A stretch of DNA of 64,000 nt, taken from positions 930,001-994,000 of the forward strand of contig NZ_NIDE01000002.1 in NCBI RefSeq assembly GCF_002197845.1, given 5' to 3'. The stretch's first letter is position 1, and each line of letters starts with the position of its first letter. Source of the stretch: Fimbriiglobus ruber. GTDB taxonomy: Bacteria > Planctomycetota > Planctomycetia > Gemmatales > Gemmataceae. A program made the translations under genes and the position numbers. Shown here piece after piece: positions 6,657 to 50,484 of the stretch. The notes under the pieces are model-generated. The model saw only the letters and a program-made list of their open reading frames with translations, did no database searches and was not told where the DNA came from.

Positions 6657-7688
6657 TCATCCGCCGGTCGGGGGATGGTCGGGCGCACCCCCGACCGGCG
6701 GCCGAACCATGCTCCACGCCGGGTCGAACGGAGCCCGGTTCTTGAGGACCCCGTAGCAGATCATGACCAACTTCCGCATGCACGCCCCGACGGCTTGCAT
6801 CTTGGCCTTCCCGGCGGCCACCAGGCGATCATAGAACCGTTTCAACAGGGGGTTGAACCGGATCGCCGTTAGGGTCGGCAGGTACAGGGCCTTCCGGAGC
6901 CGGGCGTTCCCGGTCTTGGACAGGCGGGTGCGGGTGCGGACACTGGTCCCGCTCCGGTGCTCCCGGGGGGCCAACCCGGCGTACGCGGCCGCCGCCTGGG
7001 CCGACGGGATGTGGGCGACGGGCGGGAGTTCGGCCAGGACGGTCGACGCGGTCTGGTCCCCGACTCCGGGGATGGACGCCAGCAGAACCCGGTCGGCGGC
7101 CATCTCCGGGGTGGCCGCGATGAGAGCGTCGGCGGCGGCCTGCATGGCGTCGGCCTCCTTGCCCAGGAGCTTGATGACGCGGGCCACGGACTTGCGGGCG
7201 GCCGGGGTCAGGAGCGGGCTATCGAGCCGCGTTTTTTCTTGCGCGGCTAGGGCCCGGACGTCGTCCCGGCGGCGGACCAGGGCCTGGAGTTCGCGGACCG
7301 CGGGGGTCGGCGGGACCCAGGCCGGGGGGCGGTGATCGCGGACGTACCCGGCGATCAGGCGGGCGTCGGCCTTGTCCGTCTTGTTCCCCCGCCCGCGGAC
7401 GACCCCGGCGTACTTGACCCGGACCGGGTTGATCACACTGACCCGCCGGGCGGCTGCGTGCAGGTGGGTGGCGAGAGCATCCTCGTACCCGCCGGTCGAC
7501 TCCATCCCGTAGTGGACGTCGGCCCCGCTCGCGTGCCCGTCGACCCACGCGACCAGGGCCGCGTGCCCGTCCGGGTCGTTCGCGAAGGCGTGGTCGCGGG
7601 CCTTCCCGTCCGGGGTCAGGAGGCACGCGTCGAGGGTCTTCTTGCTGACGTCGATGCCGACGAACGTGGTCGTGGTGGTGGTGCCCAT
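6657..7688 (-). CDS. IS110-family recombinase (DEDD transposase), copy 1
   Basis: The 343-residue protein starts at ATG 7688. The RuvC-like DEDD domain is at the N-terminus: D13 in FVGIDVSKKTLDA, E63 in YGMESTGGYE and D residues in NKTDKADARLIAGYVRD. The C-terminal Tnp20 domain has LASIPGVGDQTASTVLAEL and LAPREHRSGTS with the serine required in this family. It catalyses excision and RNA-guided insertion of the element as a circle. It is intact and its protein is the same as that of copy 2. Confidence 0.95.
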   Translation of the reverse strand: MGTTTTTTFVGIDVSKKTLDACLLTPDGKARDHAFANDPDGHAALVAWVDGHASGADVHYGMESTGGYEDALATHLHAAARRVSVINPVRVKYAGVVRGRGNKTDKADARLIAGYVRDHRPPAWVPPTPAVRELQALVRRRDDVRALAAQEKTRLDSPLLTPAARKSVARVIKLLGKEADAMQAAADALIAATPEMAADRVLLASIPGVGDQTASTVLAELPPVAHIPSAQAAAAYAGLAPREHRSGTSVRTRTRLSKTGNARLRKALYLPTLTAIRFNPLLKRFYDRLVAAGKAKMQAVGACMRKLVMICYGVLKNRAPFDPAWSMVRPPVGGAPDHPPTGG

Positions 7689-9760: not shown

Positions 9761-10792
9761 TCATCCGCCGGTCGGGGGATGGTCGGGCGCACCCCCGACC
9801 GGCGGCCGAACCATGCTCCACGCCGGGTCGAACGGAGCCCGGTTCTTGAGGACCCCGTAGCAGATCATGACCAACTTCCGCATGCACGCCCCGACGGCTT
9901 GCATCTTGGCCTTCCCGGCGGCCACCAGGCGATCATAGAACCGTTTCAACAGGGGGTTGAACCGGATCGCCGTTAGGGTCGGCAGGTACAGGGCCTTCCG
10001 GAGCCGGGCGTTCCCGGTCTTGGACAGGCGGGTGCGGGTGCGGACACTGGTCCCGCTCCGGTGCTCCCGGGGGGCCAACCCGGCGTACGCGGCCGCCGCC
10101 TGGGCCGACGGGATGTGGGCGACGGGCGGGAGTTCGGCCAGGACGGTCGACGCGGTCTGGTCCCCGACTCCGGGGATGGACGCCAGCAGAACCCGGTCGG
10201 CGGCCATCTCCGGGGTGGCCGCGATGAGAGCGTCGGCGGCGGCCTGCATGGCGTCGGCCTCCTTGCCCAGGAGCTTGATGACGCGGGCCACGGACTTGCG
10301 GGCGGCCGGGGTCAGGAGCGGGCTATCGAGCCGCGTTTTTTCTTGCGCGGCTAGGGCCCGGACGTCGTCCCGGCGGCGGACCAGGGCCTGGAGTTCGCGG
10401 ACCGCGGGGGTCGGCGGGACCCAGGCCGGGGGGCGGTGATCGCGGACGTACCCGGCGATCAGGCGGGCGTCGGCCTTGTCCGTCTTGTTCCCCCGCCCGC
10501 GGACGACCCCGGCGTACTTGACCCGGACCGGGTTGATCACACTGACCCGCCGGGCGGCTGCGTGCAGGTGGGTGGCGAGAGCATCCTCGTACCCGCCGGT
10601 CGACTCCATCCCGTAGTGGACGTCGGCCCCGCTCGCGTGCCCGTCGACCCACGCGACCAGGGCCGCGTGCCCGTCCGGGTCGTTCGCGAAGGCGTGGTCG
10701 CGGGCCTTCCCGTCCGGGGTCAGGAGGCACGCGTCGAGGGTCTTCTTGCTGACGTCGATGCCGACGAACGTGGTCGTGGTGGTGGTGCCCAT
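9761..10792 (-). CDS. IS110-family recombinase, copy 2
   Basis: The 343-residue protein is identical to copy 1, with D13, E63 and the Tnp20 serine region intact. Identity between the two copies implies very recent movement. Confidence 0.95.
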   Translation of the reverse strand: MGTTTTTTFVGIDVSKKTLDACLLTPDGKARDHAFANDPDGHAALVAWVDGHASGADVHYGMESTGGYEDALATHLHAAARRVSVINPVRVKYAGVVRGRGNKTDKADARLIAGYVRDHRPPAWVPPTPAVRELQALVRRRDDVRALAAQEKTRLDSPLLTPAARKSVARVIKLLGKEADAMQAAADALIAATPEMAADRVLLASIPGVGDQTASTVLAELPPVAHIPSAQAAAAYAGLAPREHRSGTSVRTRTRLSKTGNARLRKALYLPTLTAIRFNPLLKRFYDRLVAAGKAKMQAVGACMRKLVMICYGVLKNRAPFDPAWSMVRPPVGGAPDHPPTGG

Positions 10793-40000: not shown

Positions 40001-40801
40001 TTAACGATTTACCAGTGCGTGCATATTCTGAAGGATTTTCATGTCGGCTTCATACACGTTTAATGAATTTCTAAACGCCTTTTCTATTTGTGCTAAAATC
40101 TTTGGTTGTTTCGCATATTGTTGCTGTGCGTGTTCGAGCGCCAGGGACTTCTCCTGTAATTCATACCCCAAAAATCGGATGGCGTCATCGAGCTGCCTTC
40201 TTAAGGGGATGTGCGAGCGGATTTTATCCGCGATCGCCAAATTCCCACCAGGAGTGTTCTTTAAAGTCGATTTTACGGCATCATAGTTCTCAATCAAAGC
40301 GCGGTAGGCTCGCGCCCCGGCCGGGCCGTACCCTTCCCGGTCGATCGCCTTTTGTAGGTGGATCAATTCCTCGCGCAATACGTAATCAGGGAACGGCATG
40401 TCCGGGAGAACGATGACGTATTTGTCCCCGCTGGCCGACAGGTACGGGCCCTCCCGGAGCGCCGCCTGTTCGTTGCTGAATCGGATCTCGACGTGCTGTC
40501 GGAAGAATCGTTCGGGATTGTTCCGCACGGCCTCTTTGGGCAGATGGTTCAGGGCAAACTCGTAGGCGTAGGTGTGGATTTCCTCCCGCGAGAGCTGCCG
40601 GCCGAAGTCCGGCAGCCCGAAATCTTCGGGACCGAACCCGAGCCCTCGTTTCGGGGGTGGCTCCGGCTGTCCTTCGGGCGGTGGTATCCCTTCGGGCCCG
40701 CCGCCCGGCGGGGGATTCGCTCGTCGCGGGCGCCTCCCTGGGGGCGCGTCTCGGACGGGCGAAGGCGCGCCTTCCGGCCGAAAGCATCTCCCAACCCGGA
40801 A
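40001..40801 (-). CDS. unit B toxin-like C-terminal domain (frame -1 to the portal)
   Basis: The frame is open from 40801 to TAA 40001. It has a Pro-rich linker (NPPPGGGPEGIPPPEGQPEP), then FGPEDFGLPDFGRQLSREEI, HTYAYEFALNHLPKEAV and a helical C-terminus (YVLREELIHLQKAIDREGYG). A GTG at 40528 could start a 175-residue form. It looks like the natural end of the portal-toxin protein, but a run of five C near 40738 is one base short to join it. The catalytic type is unknown; a QLSREEIHTYAYEFA helix and an EELIHLQ helix are conserved-looking. Confidence 0.55.
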   Translation of the reverse strand, partial: FRVGRCFRPEGAPSPVRDAPPGRRPRRANPPPGGGPEGIPPPEGQPEPPPKRGLGFGPEDFGLPDFGRQLSREEIHTYAYEFALNHLPKEAVRNNPERFFRQHVEIRFSNEQAALREGPYLSASGDKYVIVLPDMPFPDYVLREELIHLQKAIDREGYGPAGARAYRALIENYDAVKSTLKNTPGGNLAIADKIRSHIPLRRQLDDAIRFLGYELQEKSLALEHAQQQYAKQPKILAQIEKAFRNSLNVYEADMKILQNMHALVNR

Positions 40802-43518
40802 TCACCCGACCGACGAATTCCAGCGGACTCGTTCAACGAGCCCGGCTCGGGGGCCGTTTCCGGCCGCCGGAAGTCGGTCCACCTCGGCTGCTTGGGGACG
40901 AAGTGGAGGGCGAGCGGGCCGCCGTTCAGGGCCAGGTCGGTGCCGCTGCCGACCATCCGGGCGAAGTGCCGGGCGGCCAGCTGGATCTCCTCCGGCGACG
41001 TCGCCCGCAGGCCGTGGTACAGGAACTGGGTCGCGCCGGCGGTGAACTCCTTCACGTCGGATGGCAGGGTGAGGGCCGCGAGCAGGAGGCCGGCGACGTC
41101 GACCACCTGGCCGACGACCGGAACCTCCTGGGACGCCAGCCAGGCGGCCGCGAGGGTCGGCAGGAGGGGGATGAGGGCCTGCACCTTCTCCTTCATTTCG
41201 GCCGACAGTTCCCCGCTCTGGACGGCCACGTTGACGGCCAGCAGGAGCTTGTCCGCCGGGTCCATGTCGGCGATCCGCTTGGGGTCGTCGAGCCCCTGGC
41301 TCTTCCAGTACGTGGCCACCGCGTCGGCATACAGCCGGTGGATCGTCCGGTCGTCCCGGGTCACCCCGGCCACTCGGAACGGGTTAGCCAGTCCGGGGAG
41401 GACCATCGGTCCGCCGGGCGGGTCGATCGTGTCGCCGGCCCGCGGGGGGAGGCCGGGCGGGAACCGGACCGAGAGCTGGCGGACCGTGTCTTCGAGGTCC
41501 CGGACGGCTTGCTGGTGTTCCGGCGAGTCGCTGCGGGATGCCTGCAAGTTGCCCAGCAAGGCCAGGACTTCGTCGCGGTAGAACCGTTGCATCCGCAACA
41601 GGGCCTCGCCCCGGGCCGTCAGGATCCGGCCCTTCGGGTTCAGGACGACCGACACCCGCGTGTTCCGGGCGGCCCGGGCCCGGTCGTCGGCGGACACGAT
41701 CGGGTCGAGGTTCACGGACACCTCCCCCGGCGCGTACCCGCACAGGGCGGCCCACAACCGCAGCCGGCGGTCGTCCCCGAACGCCCCGGGTTCCTCCAAT
41801 TGGTCGAGTGCCTCACGGATCGAAATGCGGTCGTTCGGGGTGTTGAAGATGTTCCGGAACCACTCGTCCGAGAGGTGAAAGAGTTGGGCGAATTCGTGCT
41901 TCGAGATGGTCCTTTTTTTCCACAGCAGGAGTCCCCAGGAGACCTCGGCGGCCGCCGCGATGTGTGCCGGGATTGGGTCCCGGGGTCCGGCCTCGGGACC
42001 TCCCGGTGCCACAATCGGGACGGTCGTACCACTCGCCCGCGGGACGAACTGGCCGCCGAGGAAGTGTTTCCCCTTCAGGTCGATCCCGCCCCGCGGGGCG
42101 TGGGGCGAATCCTGCGCGTACCCCACCGGACTGCCGGGGGCGGTTTGTTGCGGCGCGTCCCCGCCGACGATCTCGTCGCCCGGTCCGGGCTTGGTCAGGC
42201 CGACCAGGGCGCGGACCTCGTCGGCCTTGAACGTCAGCTTGGCTCCGGGCAGGTGGGCCGCCTTGACAAGCGCGTCGAGCTTGTCCTTGGCTTGCGGGTC
42301 GGGGAGCCGGAAGGTCCACCGATACCGCCAGCGGGCGCCGCGGAAGTTGAGGTGCTGGAGGACGCCGACCAAGTCGCGGGTGAGTGTCTCGCCCAGGTTG
42401 TCGGCGTCCCACGCGAGGAGGTTGAACTTGGTGTCGGCGTGGAGGGCCGCGACGCCGGACCCGCCGAGCCCGCTCCCCCTGGTCCCGGCGGACAGGGACT
42501 GGCCGACGTACAGCCGCTCGATGTGCTTTTCGAAGTACCGGTCGACCATGTCGACCAGAAATTGGGCCCCGGCCGTCTGAGCGGCGATGACCTCGACCTT
42601 GGCCGCGTCCTTGTCCCGCCCGCGGGGCACTGGCACCGCGAGGGCGCTCTTGCCCCGGGCGTCGGCGGCGGCTTGCTTGGCCGCGGCTTCGGCGGCCGGG
42701 TTGCCGTCCTCGTAGTAAAACAGCAACAAACCCATGCTGCCGACTTTTTCCATGTAATCGGTCAGCCACGAGAGCATCTCATCCCGTAGCCACCACGCCC
42801 AATACACGTAATCCCGGAGGCCGACCCCGTGTGACCGGCCGGCCATCTCGGGCTGCCAGTAGTCGGCAGCTTCCCGCTTGTGCGCATGGAGGATGAACCG
42901 CTGGCGGAGGTGGGGCCGGCGGAGCATGGCGAGGAGCGTCCCGCCGTCCCATAGCTTCACGTCTTCGGGCGGGAACGCTCCGGTGTCGCCGGGTCGGATG
43001 GTGATCCCGGGTGTGCCGTCCCAGTCGTACTGGATGGCGTCCCCGTGGACCGGCTCCCACGCCCGGACGATCCACCGGGGGTCGCCGGCGACGGCGTCCT
43101 GGGTCCACGCGAGTTGGGCACCGGACCGGCCGAAGAAGACGGCCGACCCGAGGGCGGTGACGAGTTGCGACAGGCTCGGGGTGCGGCGACAGCAAGCTTG
43201 CAGCAGTCGGCGGACCCGCTCGCGGTCTTCGGAGTACGGGTCTTTGGGGTTGGCCAGGTCGATGTCGTCGGGGTCGGCTTCGACCTCCCACGGCCACCGC
43301 GTCAGAGGTAGCACCCGCTCCTGTTCGAGGGCGGCCAGGTAGGCGTCGCGTCGCATGGCCTGGGCGTTGCGACGTCCGGCCCGGACGGCCTCGTCCCAGC
43401 GGTACGAGTAGGTGCGGGAGAACAGGTTATAGAGTGCGGAGAAGGAGCGGACGGGTGGGATGAGGAACCCGCGGGGGTCGGTCGCCTGGGCGTCGATGGG
43501 GGAGCGGTCGGGGGGCAT
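40549..43518 (-). CDS. phage portal protein fused to a pretoxin region (unit B)
   Basis: The start is ATG 43518; 989 residues. Residues 1-430 are a DUF935/Mu gp29-like portal (PVRSFSALYNLFSRTYSYRW; WDGGTLLAMLRRPHLRQRFI; GSMGLLLFYYEDGNPAAEAA; QFLVDMVDRYFEKHIERLYV). The motif APRGGIDLKGKHFLGGQFVP near 455-475 marks the fusion point. A helical pretoxin region (ISIREALDQLEEPGAFGDDR; LPGLANPFRVAGVTRDDRTI) runs to about residue 900. The last 90 residues are Arg-rich and probably out of frame, overlapping the real toxin frame. The portal forms the DNA entry ring of the capsid. Confidence 0.8.
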   Translation of the reverse strand: MPPDRSPIDAQATDPRGFLIPPVRSFSALYNLFSRTYSYRWDEAVRAGRRNAQAMRRDAYLAALEQERVLPLTRWPWEVEADPDDIDLANPKDPYSEDRERVRRLLQACCRRTPSLSQLVTALGSAVFFGRSGAQLAWTQDAVAGDPRWIVRAWEPVHGDAIQYDWDGTPGITIRPGDTGAFPPEDVKLWDGGTLLAMLRRPHLRQRFILHAHKREAADYWQPEMAGRSHGVGLRDYVYWAWWLRDEMLSWLTDYMEKVGSMGLLLFYYEDGNPAAEAAAKQAAADARGKSALAVPVPRGRDKDAAKVEVIAAQTAGAQFLVDMVDRYFEKHIERLYVGQSLSAGTRGSGLGGSGVAALHADTKFNLLAWDADNLGETLTRDLVGVLQHLNFRGARWRYRWTFRLPDPQAKDKLDALVKAAHLPGAKLTFKADEVRALVGLTKPGPGDEIVGGDAPQQTAPGSPVGYAQDSPHAPRGGIDLKGKHFLGGQFVPRASGTTVPIVAPGGPEAGPRDPIPAHIAAAAEVSWGLLLWKKRTISKHEFAQLFHLSDEWFRNIFNTPNDRISIREALDQLEEPGAFGDDRRLRLWAALCGYAPGEVSVNLDPIVSADDRARAARNTRVSVVLNPKGRILTARGEALLRMQRFYRDEVLALLGNLQASRSDSPEHQQAVRDLEDTVRQLSVRFPPGLPPRAGDTIDPPGGPMVLPGLANPFRVAGVTRDDRTIHRLYADAVATYWKSQGLDDPKRIADMDPADKLLLAVNVAVQSGELSAEMKEKVQALIPLLPTLAAAWLASQEVPVVGQVVDVAGLLLAALTLPSDVKEFTAGATQFLYHGLRATSPEEIQLAARHFARMVGSGTDLALNGGPLALHFVPKQPRWTDFRRPETAPEPGSLNESAGIRRSGDSGLGDAFGRKARLRPSETRPQGGARDERIPRRAAGPKGYHRPKDSRSHPRNEGSGSVPKISGCRTSAGSSRGRKSTPTPTSLP

Positions 43519-43897: not shown

Positions 43898-45574
43898 TCA
43901 CGTCCGGTCGCGCCAGTTCCGGCGGCCGCCGGTGTCGACCCAGGAAGCGGTGCCGGGGGTGCGGGCGTCGTAGTAGGCGAGGTTCAGGGCGTCCATGCCG
44001 TCGGGCGAGCGGCCGAGCTTGCGCTTAGTCTCGTCCTTCGGCTCCACGCACCGGCGGCCGGCCGAATCGGGCCACCAGAGCGGGGCCAACGCCTGCGCCT
44101 CCAGCTTCGCGACGAGGTACGGCTTTCGGGCGTTCAAGTCCGCCAGGGAGAGGAGGCCGGCCTTCGCCCGCTCGACCGTCGAAAACCAGAGTTCGTGCCG
44201 CACCTTCTGATACTTGACCGCTTCGTTAGCCGTTTCGGAGGAGTTAACTGGGAAGACCGCGTAGCCGTCGGCCCGGAGGATGCTCACCACGCCGCCCCCG
44301 ACGCCGGTGTCGTCGACCTTGATGCGGATCGTCTTCGGGTCGATCGCGGCGGCCGTTCGCGGGCGGGTCGAGGTCGCGCGGGCCGCGAGCGCGGCGGCGA
44401 TCTCCTTCAGGCGGGCGGCGACGCGGACCTCGTCCCACCCGTTGACCGCCTCGTGGTCGAGGCTGACCGGCCCCCAGCGGGAGTGCGTCTCGGTCCAGTC
44501 GTCGCCGAAGCGGGCCACGTCGCAGCCGATTTCGGGTAGGTCGCCCGGAGCCCACACCAGAGTCGGGTTCGGCGCGAGGACGCTCGCCCACAACTGTTCG
44601 GACCAGACGCCGTAGGTGCCCGCGGACGGCCGGCGGCCCAGAACCCGGGCTTCGCCCAGCGGCCCGGGCCGCCACCAGGCGCCGGAGCCGGGCGGGAACT
44701 CCACGTCCGCCGGCGTCTGGTTTCCGGCCGACACCCGCTCGAACCAGTCGCCCATCCAGGCGGTCACTTGCTCGACCGTCACGGCACCGGGGACGGGCAG
44801 CGACAGGAGGGGCGAGCCCTTGCGCGACCGGTCGGCGTTCGCGAGGCCGACGGCCACGTTCGGGTGCGTCAGGCTGCTGACGGCGAAGACGCGCCACTTC
44901 CGCTCGCCGTCGGGGCCGACGGCCCGCTCCTCCTGGAAGCTCTGGCTCGTGGTCGTGGTCGGGTTCAGGATGGCGAAGAAGCCGTGCTCGCCGGTGGGCT
45001 GGAACATGGTGCCGGCCGTCTGCCAGTAGATGCCGTCCACGCCCTCGGCCTCGTCGAAGACGAAGAGCATGCGGGCCCGGTGGCGGCCCTGGAAGCTCTC
45101 GCCGGCGGCGGCCGTGTAGCCCTTGGCGTAGTGGTCCGGGCCGATCCGCATCTCGGGCGCGGCCGGGCCGGCGAAGTTCATCGACAGACGGACGGCGGCC
45201 CGCTGCCGCTGGAGGCGGACTTCCGTCCAGAGGAGGTCGGCCACGTCCCGGCGCGTTGGGGCGGTGGTGATGACGACGCCGGGGTCGCGGGTGTCGTACC
45301 ACCAGTTGACGAGCCAGGCCGCGAGATACGTTTTCCCCACGTTGTGGCCGGACTTGACGAGGACACGGTAGGGCGGCTGGAGGATGGCCGGGGCGATGGC
45401 CGCCTGGTCCGGGGTGGGGGTGACGCCGAGGACGTCGACCGCGTAGCCGACGGGGTCATTCATGTAGCGGGCGAAGGAAGGGGCCGCCGCCCGGGAGCGC
45501 TCGTCCTGTTCGGCCCGGGTCCGTTCCAATTCCGTGAGCATGGCCCTCAACTGACGCTTCGGGATTTTCGCCAC
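43898..45574 (-). CDS. terL: terminase large subunit
   Basis: The 558-residue protein starts at GTG 45574; ATG 45541 is an alternative. The ATPase domain has a Walker A-like SGHNVGKT (75-82) and Walker B FVFDEAEG (172-178). The RNase H-like nuclease has IGCDVARFGDD (D352), IKVDDTGVGGG (D421/D422) and SPDGMDALNLAYYD (D525/D528). It packages DNA into the prohead through the portal, encoded next on the same strand. All catalytic positions are present. Confidence 0.93.
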   Translation of the reverse strand: MAKIPKRQLRAMLTELERTRAEQDERSRAAAPSFARYMNDPVGYAVDVLGVTPTPDQAAIAPAILQPPYRVLVKSGHNVGKTYLAAWLVNWWYDTRDPGVVITTAPTRRDVADLLWTEVRLQRQRAAVRLSMNFAGPAAPEMRIGPDHYAKGYTAAAGESFQGRHRARMLFVFDEAEGVDGIYWQTAGTMFQPTGEHGFFAILNPTTTTSQSFQEERAVGPDGERKWRVFAVSSLTHPNVAVGLANADRSRKGSPLLSLPVPGAVTVEQVTAWMGDWFERVSAGNQTPADVEFPPGSGAWWRPGPLGEARVLGRRPSAGTYGVWSEQLWASVLAPNPTLVWAPGDLPEIGCDVARFGDDWTETHSRWGPVSLDHEAVNGWDEVRVAARLKEIAAALAARATSTRPRTAAAIDPKTIRIKVDDTGVGGGVVSILRADGYAVFPVNSSETANEAVKYQKVRHELWFSTVERAKAGLLSLADLNARKPYLVAKLEAQALAPLWWPDSAGRRCVEPKDETKRKLGRSPDGMDALNLAYYDARTPGTASWVDTGGRRNWRDRT

Positions 45575-45938
45575 GTGCTACCTCGCGGTCGTGCCGTTCC
45601 AGGTCGCGGATGCGCCGGATGATGTCGTCGTACTTCTCGCTGTGGGTGGCGAATTCGAGGGGGTATTGCCGCTCCAGCCACCACGCCGCCGCCTGCCACT
45701 TGTCGGCCGCCGCCATCTGGATGTGGGCGACGTTCCGGGCGAGGGCGTCGGCCAGCGCCTTCCGGACCGCGACCAGGAAATCGTGGTGGGCCCCGGACGT
45801 CGCCTTGGCCCCACGTTGGAGCCACACCTGCAGGGTCCGCGAGTGGATGCCGGCCCGCATCGCCGCGTACTTCTTGGGCACCCCGGCGGCGATGCCGTCG
45901 ATGATGATCCGCCGCACCTCGGGCGTGAGCTTGGTCAC
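45456..45938 (-). CDS. terminase small subunit-like DNA-binding protein
   Basis: The start is at 45938 (MTKLTPEVRRIIIDGIAAGV). The first 40 residues hold a helix-turn-helix (GVPKKYAAMRAGIHSRTLQV), followed by a helical region (FLVAVRKALADALARNVAHI; ADKWQAAAWWLERQYPLEFA) typical of small terminase or phage helix-turn-helix proteins. The last 40 residues overlap the terL start by 119 bases, an unusually long overlap; the functional protein may end earlier. Confidence 0.72.
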   Translation of the reverse strand: MTKLTPEVRRIIIDGIAAGVPKKYAAMRAGIHSRTLQVWLQRGAKATSGAHHDFLVAVRKALADALARNVAHIQMAAADKWQAAAWWLERQYPLEFATHSEKYDDIIRRIRDLERHDREVARGENPEASVEGHAHGIGTDPGRTGRALPGGGPFLRPLHE

Positions 45939-45965
45939 GGTACACCTTCAAGAAAAAGCAGGTTT

Positions 45966-46086
45966 GGCCACAGAGATCACAGAGGACACAGAGCAGAAAA
46001 GAGAGGGAAGAGAGGAGAGCTAATACTTTGCTTGAACTATTTGGCTTCTTCTCTCTTCTCTGTGTCTTCTGTGACCTCTGTGGCTA
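45966..46086. repeat. inverted repeat, variant of family R2
   Basis: The arms GGCCACAGAGATCACAGAGG and CCTCTGTGGCTA pair around an AT-rich centre. The sequence differs from R2 but has the same design (purine-rich arm with GAGGGCAC-like units). Confidence 0.75.
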
Positions 46087-47208
46087 AACTCTTTGGATTT
46101 TGAGCAAGCTCCGGGCGTCGTCCGGGCGGGGCGGGCCGACGTATTCGAAACCGGCGGTGAACCGCTCGGTCGCCCGGGTCCGCCCCAGAGTGATGCCGGA
46201 CTTGTTGGGCTCGTGGCGGCCGCCCAGGGAGGGTGGTCGCGTCATCCGCCAGAGGGGAGACTTGGCCCGGTGGCGGATGATGGCGGGGTGGGCGGTGGTG
46301 CTGCGGTAGGGCTTGCCGAGGCAACGCATGACGCCCGCGACGAAGTCGCTCAGGGCGTTGCCGATGCCGACGCCCTGATAGTCCGGCAGGCAGACGGTCC
46401 GGTGCTCGCGCCACCAGCAGACGCGGCCCGGGCAGTGGATCGCCGAGGCGAACGCCACCGGGCGGCCCTGCCAGAACGCGGCGAAGCACGTCGCGGACGG
46501 GTGCAGGCTCGCGTCTAAATAATGATGGTGCTTGAACGTGTCCCAGGCGGCGGCGCGAACGCGGCGGACTTCCAGCTCGATCGGCGGCCGCCGAAGTGCC
46601 CTCCGCGTCAGGGTGCCGTTGGGCATGTCGATCACCCAATCGGGGCAGAGCCATTCGGCCACGTCGTCGTGGCAGGTGACGGCCACGAACCGCTTCCCCG
46701 GCTGCCGGCGAACGGTCTTCGCGACCGCGGCGCTGCCGATCCGGGCGACCGTCCGGTCGACGACCGACGTGAACTCGTCCACGACGACGAGCGGCCGCGG
46801 GTCGCAGAGGGCGCGGGCGAGGGTGGCCCGGAACTGCTCGCCGTTGGACAGGCAGCGGAACGGCCGGACCCAACTCGGCGGGCTACTGAACCCGACCGAC
46901 GAGAGGGCCGCCGTCACGTCCTTGACCGAAAGGTCGGCCGGGAAGCCGTCGACCACAGCTTTGTCCGCCGGCCACTCGTACCCGCCGATGAGCGCGTCGC
47001 CGAACGCGGCCCGGGCGAGCGTCGATTTACCCGAGCCCGACGGCCCGACGATCAGGCCGACCTGCCAGTCGGCGTTGGGTGCGGGTACGTCGACCGTCCA
47101 CGAGCGTGAGGAGCGGTCCGCGGGCGGTATGTCGAACAGGCCCGCGAGCTGCAAGACGCGGGCGGTCTTCGCGACGGGGGCTTCGAGATGGAAGGTGAGG
47201 GTGGGCAT
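46084..47208 (-). CDS. ABC-type ATPase fused to GNAT acetyltransferase domain (COG2401-like)
   Basis: The start is ATG 47208; 374 residues. The ABC domain has Walker A GPSGSGKS (55-62), a signature region CLSNGEQFRATLARAL (119-134) and Walker B VVVDEF (141-146). Residues 220-320 form a GNAT-like fold with the acetyl-CoA loop QGVGIG (277-282), resembling Mom-like phage acetyltransferases. Such fusions are known in phages and archaea; a role in DNA modification or packaging protection is suspected. It lies between a ParB-like gene and terminase. Confidence 0.82.
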   Translation of the reverse strand: MPTLTFHLEAPVAKTARVLQLAGLFDIPPADRSSRSWTVDVPAPNADWQVGLIVGPSGSGKSTLARAAFGDALIGGYEWPADKAVVDGFPADLSVKDVTAALSSVGFSSPPSWVRPFRCLSNGEQFRATLARALCDPRPLVVVDEFTSVVDRTVARIGSAAVAKTVRRQPGKRFVAVTCHDDVAEWLCPDWVIDMPNGTLTRRALRRPPIELEVRRVRAAAWDTFKHHHYLDASLHPSATCFAAFWQGRPVAFASAIHCPGRVCWWREHRTVCLPDYQGVGIGNALSDFVAGVMRCLGKPYRSTTAHPAIIRHRAKSPLWRMTRPPSLGGRHEPNKSGITLGRTRATERFTAGFEYVGPPRPDDARSLLKIQRV

Positions 47209-47219
47209 GGTAAAGCAGA

Positions 47220-47328
47220 GTTAAAAATTAAAAGTTAAAAATTAAAAAAGAATACAGTGGAAGTTTCATGTGGGGTGAGGATTGAGCAGATGGGTTGTTT
47301 CTGTATTTTTTAACTTTTAATTTTTAAC
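47220..47328. repeat. AT-rich inverted repeat, family R3
   Basis: GTTAAAAATTAAAAGTTAAA at the left mirrors TTTTTAACTTTTAATTTTTA at the right. It is the second copy of the element at 25214-25311, here between the ABC-GNAT and ParB-like genes. Confidence 0.85.
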
Positions 47329-47336
47329 TGGTTTCC

Positions 47337-47897
47337 TCAGCTGATCAGCGACCGGCACGTGAGCCCGTCGGCCGTAAAGCGCTCCAACAGCTCCGCCTGG
47401 TGGCCCTCGTCCGTGCAGAGGACGAGGATGTGATACTTCTCGGCGATCTCTTCCAGGGAGGCAGTCGTCGCGGATACTTCGGGCGTTTCCTTGCTGGAAC
47501 GCGCGGCGGCCAGTTCCTTGAGCAGCGCGCCGACCGCGTCGTTGTCCGTGTGCACCGACCGGAGCAGGGCGTCGAGCTTGCCGGCGTCGGTCCCGGCCAT
47601 CGCGCCGAGCGGGTCGAGGGTAACAAGGAGTTTGTCCGCCTCGTCGTCCGTCAGGTCGACGACCAGGACGGGGACGACCGCGTCGGGCGCGGTCTCGGCC
47701 CGCAGGTGGCCGTCGAGGAGCGTCAGGCCGGCGGGCGTGTCGCGGGCGATGAGGGCGCCGGCGAACCCGATCTCGGCCAACACGCCGCGGAGGACGTTCT
47801 TCTGCCGGTCGGGGTGGGTCCGCCAGTTCTTCGGGTTGGGCACGAGGTCGCCCGCCGGCACCCGCCGCAGTTCCTTGACCCGGTCGCGAATTTTCAC
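47337..47897 (-). CDS. ParB-like nuclease domain protein
   Basis: The start is GTG 47897 after GGAGCAGG. The 186-residue product has LRRVPAGDLVPNPKNWRTHP and then LTLLDGHLRAETA, the conserved ParB/Srx motifs for nucleotide binding. In phages, such proteins often accompany DNA-modifying enzymes or methylases. It is the first gene of a probable operon with ABC-GNAT and the terminases. Confidence 0.82.
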   Translation of the reverse strand: MKIRDRVKELRRVPAGDLVPNPKNWRTHPDRQKNVLRGVLAEIGFAGALIARDTPAGLTLLDGHLRAETAPDAVVPVLVVDLTDDEADKLLVTLDPLGAMAGTDAGKLDALLRSVHTDNDAVGALLKELAAARSSKETPEVSATTASLEEIAEKYHILVLCTDEGHQAELLERFTADGLTCRSLIS

Positions 47898-47973: not shown

Positions 47974-48086
47974 GCGTGCGGAAGGAGGGGTGGGGCTGGC
48001 GGGGTGGGTGTATTGCTTGAGAAGATCGCGGCGGGTAACCTGCCTGTTCTGCACACGAAGAATGTTCAGACGTGGGATCTTCTCAG

Positions 48087-48917
48087 ATGTTGAGCTTTCT
48101 GTTTTGGAATTTGAAGAGTGAGAACGTCGAGACCCTCGCCAATCTGGTCGAGCATCTGTCGGCTGATATCGTCATCCTGGCCGAGTGTCCGGCGCCATCC
48201 GGGGCCATTCTCCGCGCAATTAACCGCACTAGCAAAGACTACTTTCTGGCCCGAAGTGGGTGTGATAAAATCGCTATCTATGCGCGGTATTCTGGCAGGT
48301 TGCTTGAGCCTGTTAAACGGGAAAATGAGGAGGTTCGCGGAGACGATTTCAGTTTTCGGCGGTTCGTTCTCCCGAAGCGAGGGGAGTTGTTGCTGTGCTC
48401 CGTACACCTTCCGTCGAAGCAACGACGGGAGAGAATCGATCAGATCGACTACGCTGTGAATTTTGCCGATTTGATAGCCGATGTGGAGACAATTGTGGGG
48501 CACCAGCGGACCGTCTTGGTTGGGGATCTAAACATGAACCCTTACGAAGACGGAATTGTGATGGCGTCCGGCCTTCACGCCGTACCGACCCGCCGCATTG
48601 CCTGCAAAGAGGTGCGCACGGTCAAGTTTCCGAGTGGGACGTATTTTTACAACCCCATGTGGTCACATTTCGGTGAAAAGCTTCAAGGCCATGCGGGGAG
48701 CTACTTCCTCGAATCACCGAAGTCGCGGGCCGATCACTGGAACATCTACGATCAGGTTCTCGTCCGACCGGAACTACTGCCTTATTTCCGGGATGAGGAC
48801 GTTCAGATTATCTGGCATGATCCGATTGGGGATCGTTCGTTGCTGGGGCCCGATGGGGTTCCGAATCGGGAGGAGTTCTCCGATCACCTCCCGGTTGCAT
48901 TCAAAATTAACCTCTGA
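48087..48917 (+). CDS. endonuclease/exonuclease/phosphatase (EEP) family protein
   Basis: I choose ATG 48087 (MLSFLFWNLKSENVETLANL); a GTG at 48072 is also in frame. The 276-residue protein shows N in FLFWNLK, E in DIVILAECPAP, the VLVGDLNMNPYEDG motif and SDHLPVAFK at the end, which together form the EEP metal site. It should hydrolyse phosphodiesters of nucleic acid or a nucleotide or phospholipid. Its base composition is lower in GC than its neighbours, indicating transfer. It is followed after ten bases by a small gene. Confidence 0.85.
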   Translation: MLSFLFWNLKSENVETLANLVEHLSADIVILAECPAPSGAILRAINRTSKDYFLARSGCDKIAIYARYSGRLLEPVKRENEEVRGDDFSFRRFVLPKRGELLLCSVHLPSKQRRERIDQIDYAVNFADLIADVETIVGHQRTVLVGDLNMNPYEDGIVMASGLHAVPTRRIACKEVRTVKFPSGTYFYNPMWSHFGEKLQGHAGSYFLESPKSRADHWNIYDQVLVRPELLPYFRDEDVQIIWHDPIGDRSLLGPDGVPNREEFSDHLPVAFKINL

Positions 48918-49534: not shown

Positions 49535-50484
49535 GAGGCTGTCCGAAAAGTGACCTTGCTGTAAGTTGTGCGTCTCTTGTAAGTTAGTCGCTCCTTCGTA
49601 CTCGAGGAGCGAAGTCATGGATGCGACCGTTCGCAAACCGTATCCGACCGATTTGACCGACCTCCAATGGGAGATCATCCAGGTCGTCCTGCCGGCCGCC
49701 CGACCCGGAGGACGCCCCCGGTCGGTGGACCTCCGGGAGGTGCTGAACGCGATCGTGTACGTGAACCGGTCGGGGTGTCAGTGGTCGATGCTCCCGCACG
49801 ACTTCCCGGCCAAGAGTACGGTGTACGAATACTTCGCCCAGTGGCGGGACGATGGCACCTGGCAAGAACTCCTGGATGTCCTCCGGGAGGGGTATCGGGA
49901 AGTCCACGCCCCGAGTCACGAGCGGACCCGAGTGCCGCGAGCATCGACAGCCAGTCGGTCAAAGGGACCGAACACGCGGGCGGGAACGGGTACGATGCGG
50001 GCAAGAAAATCCAGGGCCGGAAGCGGTCGATCGTGGTCGATACGCTGGGCCTGCTGATGGTCGTGGCGGTGACCGCCGGGCACGTCGACGACGCGGCCGC
50101 GGCCCCGACCGTACTCGAAGGGTTGGACCGTGACGCGTACCCGCGATTGAAGGTCGTGTGGGCCGACGGGAAGTACCACAACCATGCCCTGAACGGGTGG
50201 AAAGACGGCCACCCGGAACTCGGATGGGAACTCGTCATCGTCCGCCGACCGGACGGGGTAAAGGGGTTCACCCTGTTACCCAAGCGGTGGGTCGTCGAGC
50301 GGACGTTCGGGTGGCTCGGGCGGGCCCGGCGGTTAAGTCGTAATTATGAGCGACTGAATAGTTCCAGCGAATCCATGATTCGTGTGCGGTCAATCCAGCT
50401 GATCCTCAATCGCATGGATCCACAAGAGCGTTATCCCCCGTTTAAATATAGAGTTGCATCAAAATAGTCTTCCCGGACAGGCTC
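49535..50484 (+). mobile_element. IS5-family insertion sequence
   Basis: The element is 950 bases with ends GAGGCTGTCCG and CGGACAGGCTC and a TGA duplication (49532-49534 and 50485-50487). Confidence 0.9.
49617..50467 (+). CDS. IS5-family transposase in two frames
   Basis: The first frame from ATG 49617 gives [20 protein letters not shown] and [20 protein letters not shown]. The second gives [29 protein letters not shown] and [20 protein letters not shown] with the DDE residues. The frames switch near 49930. Some IS5-group elements express the fusion by frameshifting; here it may equally be a mutation. Confidence 0.85.

Follow-up and report, generated by a model that had tools for sequence, protein, structure and literature searches.

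A locus of Fimbriiglobus ruber encodes a soluble protein that joins an ABC ATPase to a GNAT domain of the ordinary acyl-CoA type, with a ParB-like partner directly upstream and phage packaging genes close downstream, and raises the question of what this protein does for its carrier. The locus was analysed within a 64,000-nucleotide stretch of the genome (the window), and its relatives were compared across phage and bacterial sequences.

The cassette and its surroundings in the window

The ABC ATPase–GNAT fusion (P0001, 374 residues; 46084–47208, minus strand) was delimited from its open reading frame, profile matches and an AlphaFold2 model. Residues 9–360, near the full length, match PHROG 11143 (4.1e-100), a family widespread in phages and annotated as function unknown, and the Pfam matches to ABC_tran (1.6e-8) and Acetyltransf_1 (4e-6) both exceed the curated cut-offs. 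All features of the fusion lie on the minus strand. The ABC nucleotide-binding domain (NBD; residues about 1–205, 46594–47208) carries Walker A GPSGSGKST (residues 55–63, 47020–47046), the ABC signature LSNGEQ (residues 120–125, 46834–46851), Walker B VVVDEF (residues 141–146, 46771–46788) and an intact H-loop, H180. The GNAT domain (residues about 206–358, 46135–46593) carries an HHYL motif after its first helix (46516–46527) and the motif A sequence QGVGIG (residues 278–283, 46360–46377), which we take to be the acyl-CoA pyrophosphate loop. In an alignment of 97 homologues, numbered one lower than P0001, conservation is complete or nearly so at the key residues of the Walker motifs, the signature and the H-loop, at the QG of the acyl-CoA loop and at the H–Y pair, H229 and Y230 being invariant. 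P0001 has complete ABC motifs followed by a GNAT domain in one chain, as in full-length members of the ABC-GNAT family.

The AlphaFold2 model of P0001, calculated from the 97 sequences, reached pLDDT 94.2 and pTM 0.88. Its ABC half was matched to the NBD of a heme exporter (7w7c_A; VIA-align, Z 15.2, 177 residues aligned, rmsd 2.9), and the 373-residue model consists of the NBD and the GNAT domain only, with no transmembrane domain such as an ABC transporter may have in the same protein. The GNAT domain modelled alone (pLDDT 92.0) was matched to 1y9k_A (Z 14.0, rmsd 3.2, 136 residues aligned), so the C-terminal half is predicted to adopt the fold of an ordinary acyl-CoA GNAT, and CoA binding by the QGVGIG loop is predicted from the motif. 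The preliminary description of this DNA had named a missing acetyl-CoA site as grounds for abandoning a DNA-modification role; with the motif conserved and the model that of an ordinary acyl-CoA GNAT, those grounds fall away.

The ParB-like partner (P0002, 186 residues; 47337–47897, minus strand) ends in a 44-residue C-terminal "tail" module (47340–47471, minus strand). Its best PHROG match is to PHROG 498 (3.1e-12), a DNA-methyltransferase family of which P0002 matches the N-terminal part; the match to PHROG 620 (1.6e-10) identifies a ParB N-terminal NTPase-fold domain. Pfam ParB_N did not match P0002 itself and matched its relative in phage Pmp13 (1.7e-7), and the DNA-binding HTH domain that marks a canonical ParB was not found in P0002, no HTH family matching up to E 1. 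A GHxR motif, presumably nucleotide-binding, is present in 106 of 152 ParB-like proteins and in P0002.

Downstream of the cassette, all on the minus strand, are the small (PHROG 4102, 1.6e-22; 45456–45938) and large (PHROG 2, 1.2e-15; 43898–45574) terminase subunits and a Mu-type portal protein (PF06074, 6.2e-44; 40549–43518). The 10 ORFs beyond the portal, from 28.3 to 40.5 kb, gave no PHROG match, which makes the element a probable prophage fragment. The P0002 and P0001 genes are separated by 128 nt with a palindromic repeat, an AT-rich inverted repeat (47219–47329) with 56 matches in its own genome, and an inverted repeat of the CACAGAG type (45962–46089; 83 matches in its own genome) runs over the 3' end of the ABC-GNAT gene, on the side towards the terminase gene. 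The two palindromic repeats differ in sequence from each other, and the first occupies a gap where many relatives have a 22-nt gene overlap. The intact Walker motifs and the fusion, the ParB-like gene beside it and the position by terminase genes had all been proposed in the preliminary description, and the ORFs, Pfam, PHROG and motif data agree with them. The single operon that it also proposed is no more than likely, because of the 128-nt palindromic gap and the second palindrome before the terminase gene.

Several other features of the window were recorded. Close upstream of the cassette an IS4/5-family transposase spans two frames (DUF4096, DDE_Tnp_1; 49566–50467) and is either a programmed frameshift or a broken copy; a plus-strand ORF of 281 residues (48072–48917), with an Exo_endo_phos match at 7e-6, is divergent from the cassette; and two IS110-family transposase genes of equal length and Pfam scores (6657–7688 and 9761–10792) lie about 3.1 kb apart.

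The 12.36-Mb source genome holds one full copy of the ABC-GNAT gene, for which the nearest relatives are on contigs of Planctomycetia (71% identity), Gemmata (70%) and Zavarzinella (68%). Comparison of five relative loci (L102–L106) with the window showed ParB and ABC-GNAT in common, plus the small terminase in L102 only, and wider synteny was rejected.

Exchange with mom and a modular ParB-like partner

By tblastn, relatives of P0001 were found in 77 of 50,697 phage records, and Mom in 226 records of the same set; at least 591 viral-contig stretches also carry ABC-GNAT. Among the Porphyromonas phages, phage008a carries ABC-GNAT with a formyltransferase where phage014a carries Mom. Their sequences agree at 86.1% over a 3109-bp stretch that stops a single base short of the mom CDS, and at 81.7% over the final 93 bp, so that the difference is confined to the cassettes. 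The tail flank is common to 10 records, largely prophages assembled from bacterial genomes, of which four have a Mom cassette (93–100% identical to that of phage014a), five have ABC-GNAT and one has neither. In Pseudomonas phage Komp_PAO1_1, the 282 bp before the cassette share 72.7% identity with the stretch before mom in PAN70, and encode a Com-like zinc finger (E 7.3e-17) directly upstream of the cassette; the next-best Com match among all ABC-GNAT loci had E 0.099, and of 83 Mom loci 70 gave a Com-like ORF. Com activates mom translation in Mu (PMC6483171). The exchange thus comprises one phage lineage read base by base and a one-sided match in a second, and with Com upstream it indicates that ABC-GNAT stands in for Mom in two phage lineages. 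In the window, the best Com HMM match had E 0.49, and no Com-like gene was found there.

The ParB-like gene adjoins ABC-GNAT in 138 of 148 loci (59 of 64 after dereplication at 60%), or in 136 of 140 under another rule, both sets being chosen by ABC-GNAT alone. The commonest arrangement is the 22-nt overlap (61 loci), and in L125 and L138 ParB, tail, ABC and GNAT are read in one open frame of 611 and 584 residues; two further candidates for such fusions, picked by length (L180 and L074), were rejected as their N-terminal part is not ParB in frame. The gene pair is also listed for a Leptospira phage, under "replication", in PMC6078989. Among isolated phages, Gordonia phage Jace has the ParB-like and ABC-GNAT genes, Gordonia phage Ligma has a formyltransferase in addition to both, and in Lactococcus phage P335 the ABC and GNAT parts are split. 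A universal partnership is ruled out: the ParB-like gene is absent in 8 of the 18 phage loci read, 6 of them also without the tail module and 2 keeping the tail alone.

The C-terminal 44 residues of the ParB-like protein make up a module of their own, which occurs free of the ParB domain, just ahead of ABC-GNAT, in Komp_PAO1_1 (E 7.9e-10) and also in Porphyromonas phage008a (E 3.5e-4). The "acr candidate" of phage008a (L011, 3774–3902) resembles such a free-standing tail module, for which reason a role of this small protein in anti-CRISPR is doubtful.

A ParB-like gene, matched by the same ParB HMM, is also found upstream of one branch of Mom, with Microbacterium phage Appa as prototype (L266, 2969–4121, and L268–L347), in 69 of the 69 relatives whose sequence reaches far enough, all fetched with one seed and so related to each other. 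There the partner ends in a CPxC module: the C-terminal motif is present in 76 of 77 Appa-type Mom partners versus 0 of 144 ABC-GNAT partners, and the tail HMM matched 0 of 69 Appa-type partners. At Mu-type Mom loci a ParB-like gene was found in 0 of 79, with Com there instead, and the Com HMM gave 4 matches in Appa-type loci, which were not taken as identifying the CPxC module with Com. Most simply, the data read as a single interchangeable ParB front end, joined to a small module specific for each modifying enzyme. A literature search, which did not extend to the 2013 paper of Iyer and colleagues, returned no recognised earlier account of the mom exchange, the Com association or the two C-terminal modules.

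Proposed function and its alternatives

We consider the locus, on the strength of sequence comparison, to be probably an anti-restriction cassette of phages for ATP- and acyl-CoA-dependent acylation of DNA bases, in which the ParB-like protein is a partner. Decoration of DNA bases is probable because related phages have the cassette exactly where others have Mom; the DNA-modification role put forward in the preliminary description gains from this replacement, from Com ahead of the cassette at a second locus and from the ParB front end in common with a Mom branch. In the proposed mechanism, two ABC domains would come together on ATP and grip or distort the DNA duplex, and the GNAT domain would move the acyl group of acyl-CoA onto an exocyclic amine of a base, adenine N6 being the first candidate that the analogy with Mom suggests. 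The ParB-like protein would dock to ABC-GNAT through its C-terminal tail module, and its NTP-binding domain would load or direct the enzyme on phage DNA. The acylated phage DNA would then resist host restriction enzymes, and the cassette would be expressed with the late genes through its place before the packaging genes, not for any action in packaging. No measurement of a modified base in an ABC-GNAT carrier was found in the literature.

GNATs acylate many substrates, which counts against a base as the target. The enzyme may instead acylate a host or phage protein, such as RNA polymerase or a restriction subunit, with the ABC domain as an ATP-driven substrate receptor and any restriction resistance indirect. 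The fold matches of the GNAT half are mostly protein N-acetyltransferases, the closest being of the kind of RimI and Naa50, and PMC7824862 describes phage GNATs predicted to modify host proteins. The exact exchange with mom, Com upstream and the ParB front end common with Mom indicate DNA, however, and a protein target is judged unlikely, if the least so of the alternatives.

Mom-like activity in the strict sense, in which the enzyme would make N6-methylcarbamoyl-adenine and the ABC domain would be accessory, draws on the same locus, on Com upstream in one phage and on an H–Y pair in both families (HHYL in ABC-GNAT, HYS in Mom). The N6-methylcarbamoyl adenine product is named for Mom in PMC8281217, and the PDB lists Mu Mom as "Methylcarbamoylase mom" (8bv8); this structure is not among the 50 fold matches listed for the GNAT-only model, an absence given no weight here. 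P0001 had no match to PF25680 or PHROG 1384 (Mom) up to E 1, however, and the Mom HMM matched nothing anywhere in the window. Profile comparison by hhalign gave the GNAT domain a probability of 0.4 against 36 dereplicated Mom proteins and 0.9, over 17 columns, against the Appa-type branch, versus 99.2 over 187 columns between the Mu and Appa-type Mom branches themselves. Since hhalign aligned the H–Y pair at noise level, the pair is a lead only; Mom lacks, in a three-sequence alignment, the Q/RxxGxG motif that ABC-GNAT conserves. Membership of the Mom family by sequence is therefore ruled out, and a methylcarbamoyl product is quite improbable. What the preliminary description called Mom-like thus survives as a likeness of function, drawn from the comparative evidence, and not as kinship of sequence.

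Slightly less probable still is a module of prophages for superinfection exclusion or defence in place of protection of the phage's own DNA. Many copies lie in prophages or bacterial contigs, and a homologue at E 1e-30 or better is present in 42 of the 95 genomes of the source's family, but the isolated phages LE3, pT24, PX29 and VmeM-32 also carry the gene, no nuclease partner was seen, and the exchange with mom argues the other way.

Segregation or packaging by a ParB–ABC ATPase machine, an SMC-like loader at a pac site with the GNAT as regulator, is the least probable of all: the ParB-like protein does lie beside an ABC ATPase, and in at least 71 of 115 loci a terminase-like gene follows within 3 kb, but the ParB-like protein has no HTH, the modelled NBD is single and compact without a coiled coil, and the cassette also occurs at genome ends, after tail genes and beside quite different terminase families. 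Modification during packaging was a separate suggestion of the preliminary description. The terminases near ABC-GNAT belong to many different families, the copies exchanged with mom sit behind tail genes or where the genome ends, and in large lytic phages ABC-GNAT has other positions again. Coupling of the cassette to packaging is unsupported, because a late-expressed slot explains the terminase proximity equally well.

A possible acyl donor, wider meaning and known systems

Some cassettes are followed by a Formyl_trans_N protein, namely those of Komp_PAO1_1, Porphyromonas phage008a and ten Gordonia phages (in the loci of Pseudomonas, Gordonia and Porphyromonas phages, L006 5074–5691, L009 1805–2452 and L011 5029–5502). 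The formyltransferase was found in 28 phage records, 13 of them with ABC-GNAT close by (10 Gordonia, Komp_PAO1_1, MT835523 and MT836387). Among the loci scanned it was restricted to L006, L009 and L011, with none in L022–L181 and none in the window, which rules it out as a general part of the cassette. Among solved structures, the N-terminal domain of 10-formyl-THF dehydrogenase is its nearest relative (8e-24). Both have no Asn at the position two residues ahead of the active-site His, where Met-tRNA and GAR transformylases carry one. That dehydrogenase domain passes formyl to a phosphopantetheine thiol, which suggests, by analogy, a formyl-thioester as donor for the GNAT.

These observations can be joined in a tentative picture, to which we give a good deal less than even chances. 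An ABC-GNAT dimer would produce an undescribed DNA base through ATP-gated acylation of an exocyclic amine; one ParB-like front end would serve two unrelated GNAT modifiers, each through its own C-terminal module (CPxC for Mom, the tail for ABC-GNAT), with Com of Mu as the free-standing counterpart of such a module; and the phages with a formyltransferase (Gordonia, Pseudomonas, Porphyromonas) would place a formylated mark or use a formyl-thioester donor. The natural exchange with mom gives a predicted orphan class of DNA-modifying enzymes support beyond domain guesswork. Since ABC-GNAT is as common as the counts in phage records and viral contigs indicate, a new base modification, if true, would matter for restriction and for the sequencing and biology of phages. 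The ParB front end, being modular, offers a handle on the way in which GNAT modifiers select phage DNA, and it hints at a second role for Com.

Among known systems, Mom of phage Mu, which we take to be a member of the GNAT superfamily, is alike in occupying the same locus as ABC-GNAT in related phages, in having Com upstream, as in one ABC-GNAT phage, and in that one Mom branch has the ParB front end of ABC-GNAT; it differs in showing no profile similarity and in having neither an ABC domain nor Q/RxxGxG. TmcA, the tRNA(Met) cytidine acetyltransferase, likewise combines a P-loop ATPase and a GNAT in one chain and acetylates a nucleobase amine, and its GNAT half ranks 46th among the listed Foldseek matches of the GNAT half of P0001 (2zpa). 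Its ATPase is of the helicase type and its substrate RNA, whereas P0001 has an ABC NBD and no helicase module. For phage proteins of the ParB-CTPase fold, PMC12704722 describes diverse members that bind NTP and, in phages, are often fused to DNA methyltransferases; the cassette protein has the same ParB-like NTP-binding domain but no HTH, stands beside or fused to ABC-GNAT and has a C-terminal module of its own. The nearest precedent is the ABC ATPase–GNAT system that Iyer and colleagues predicted in 2013 to acylate DNA bases, as cited in PMC7824862. The domain pair is the same, and Tenacibaculum phage pT24, named there, carries a homologue of P0001; most loci here add an upstream ParB-like partner with a tail module, although the neighbouring ParB gene may already figure in the 2013 paper. 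The locus in the window is a further member of this ABC-GNAT family already predicted to be DNA modifiers.
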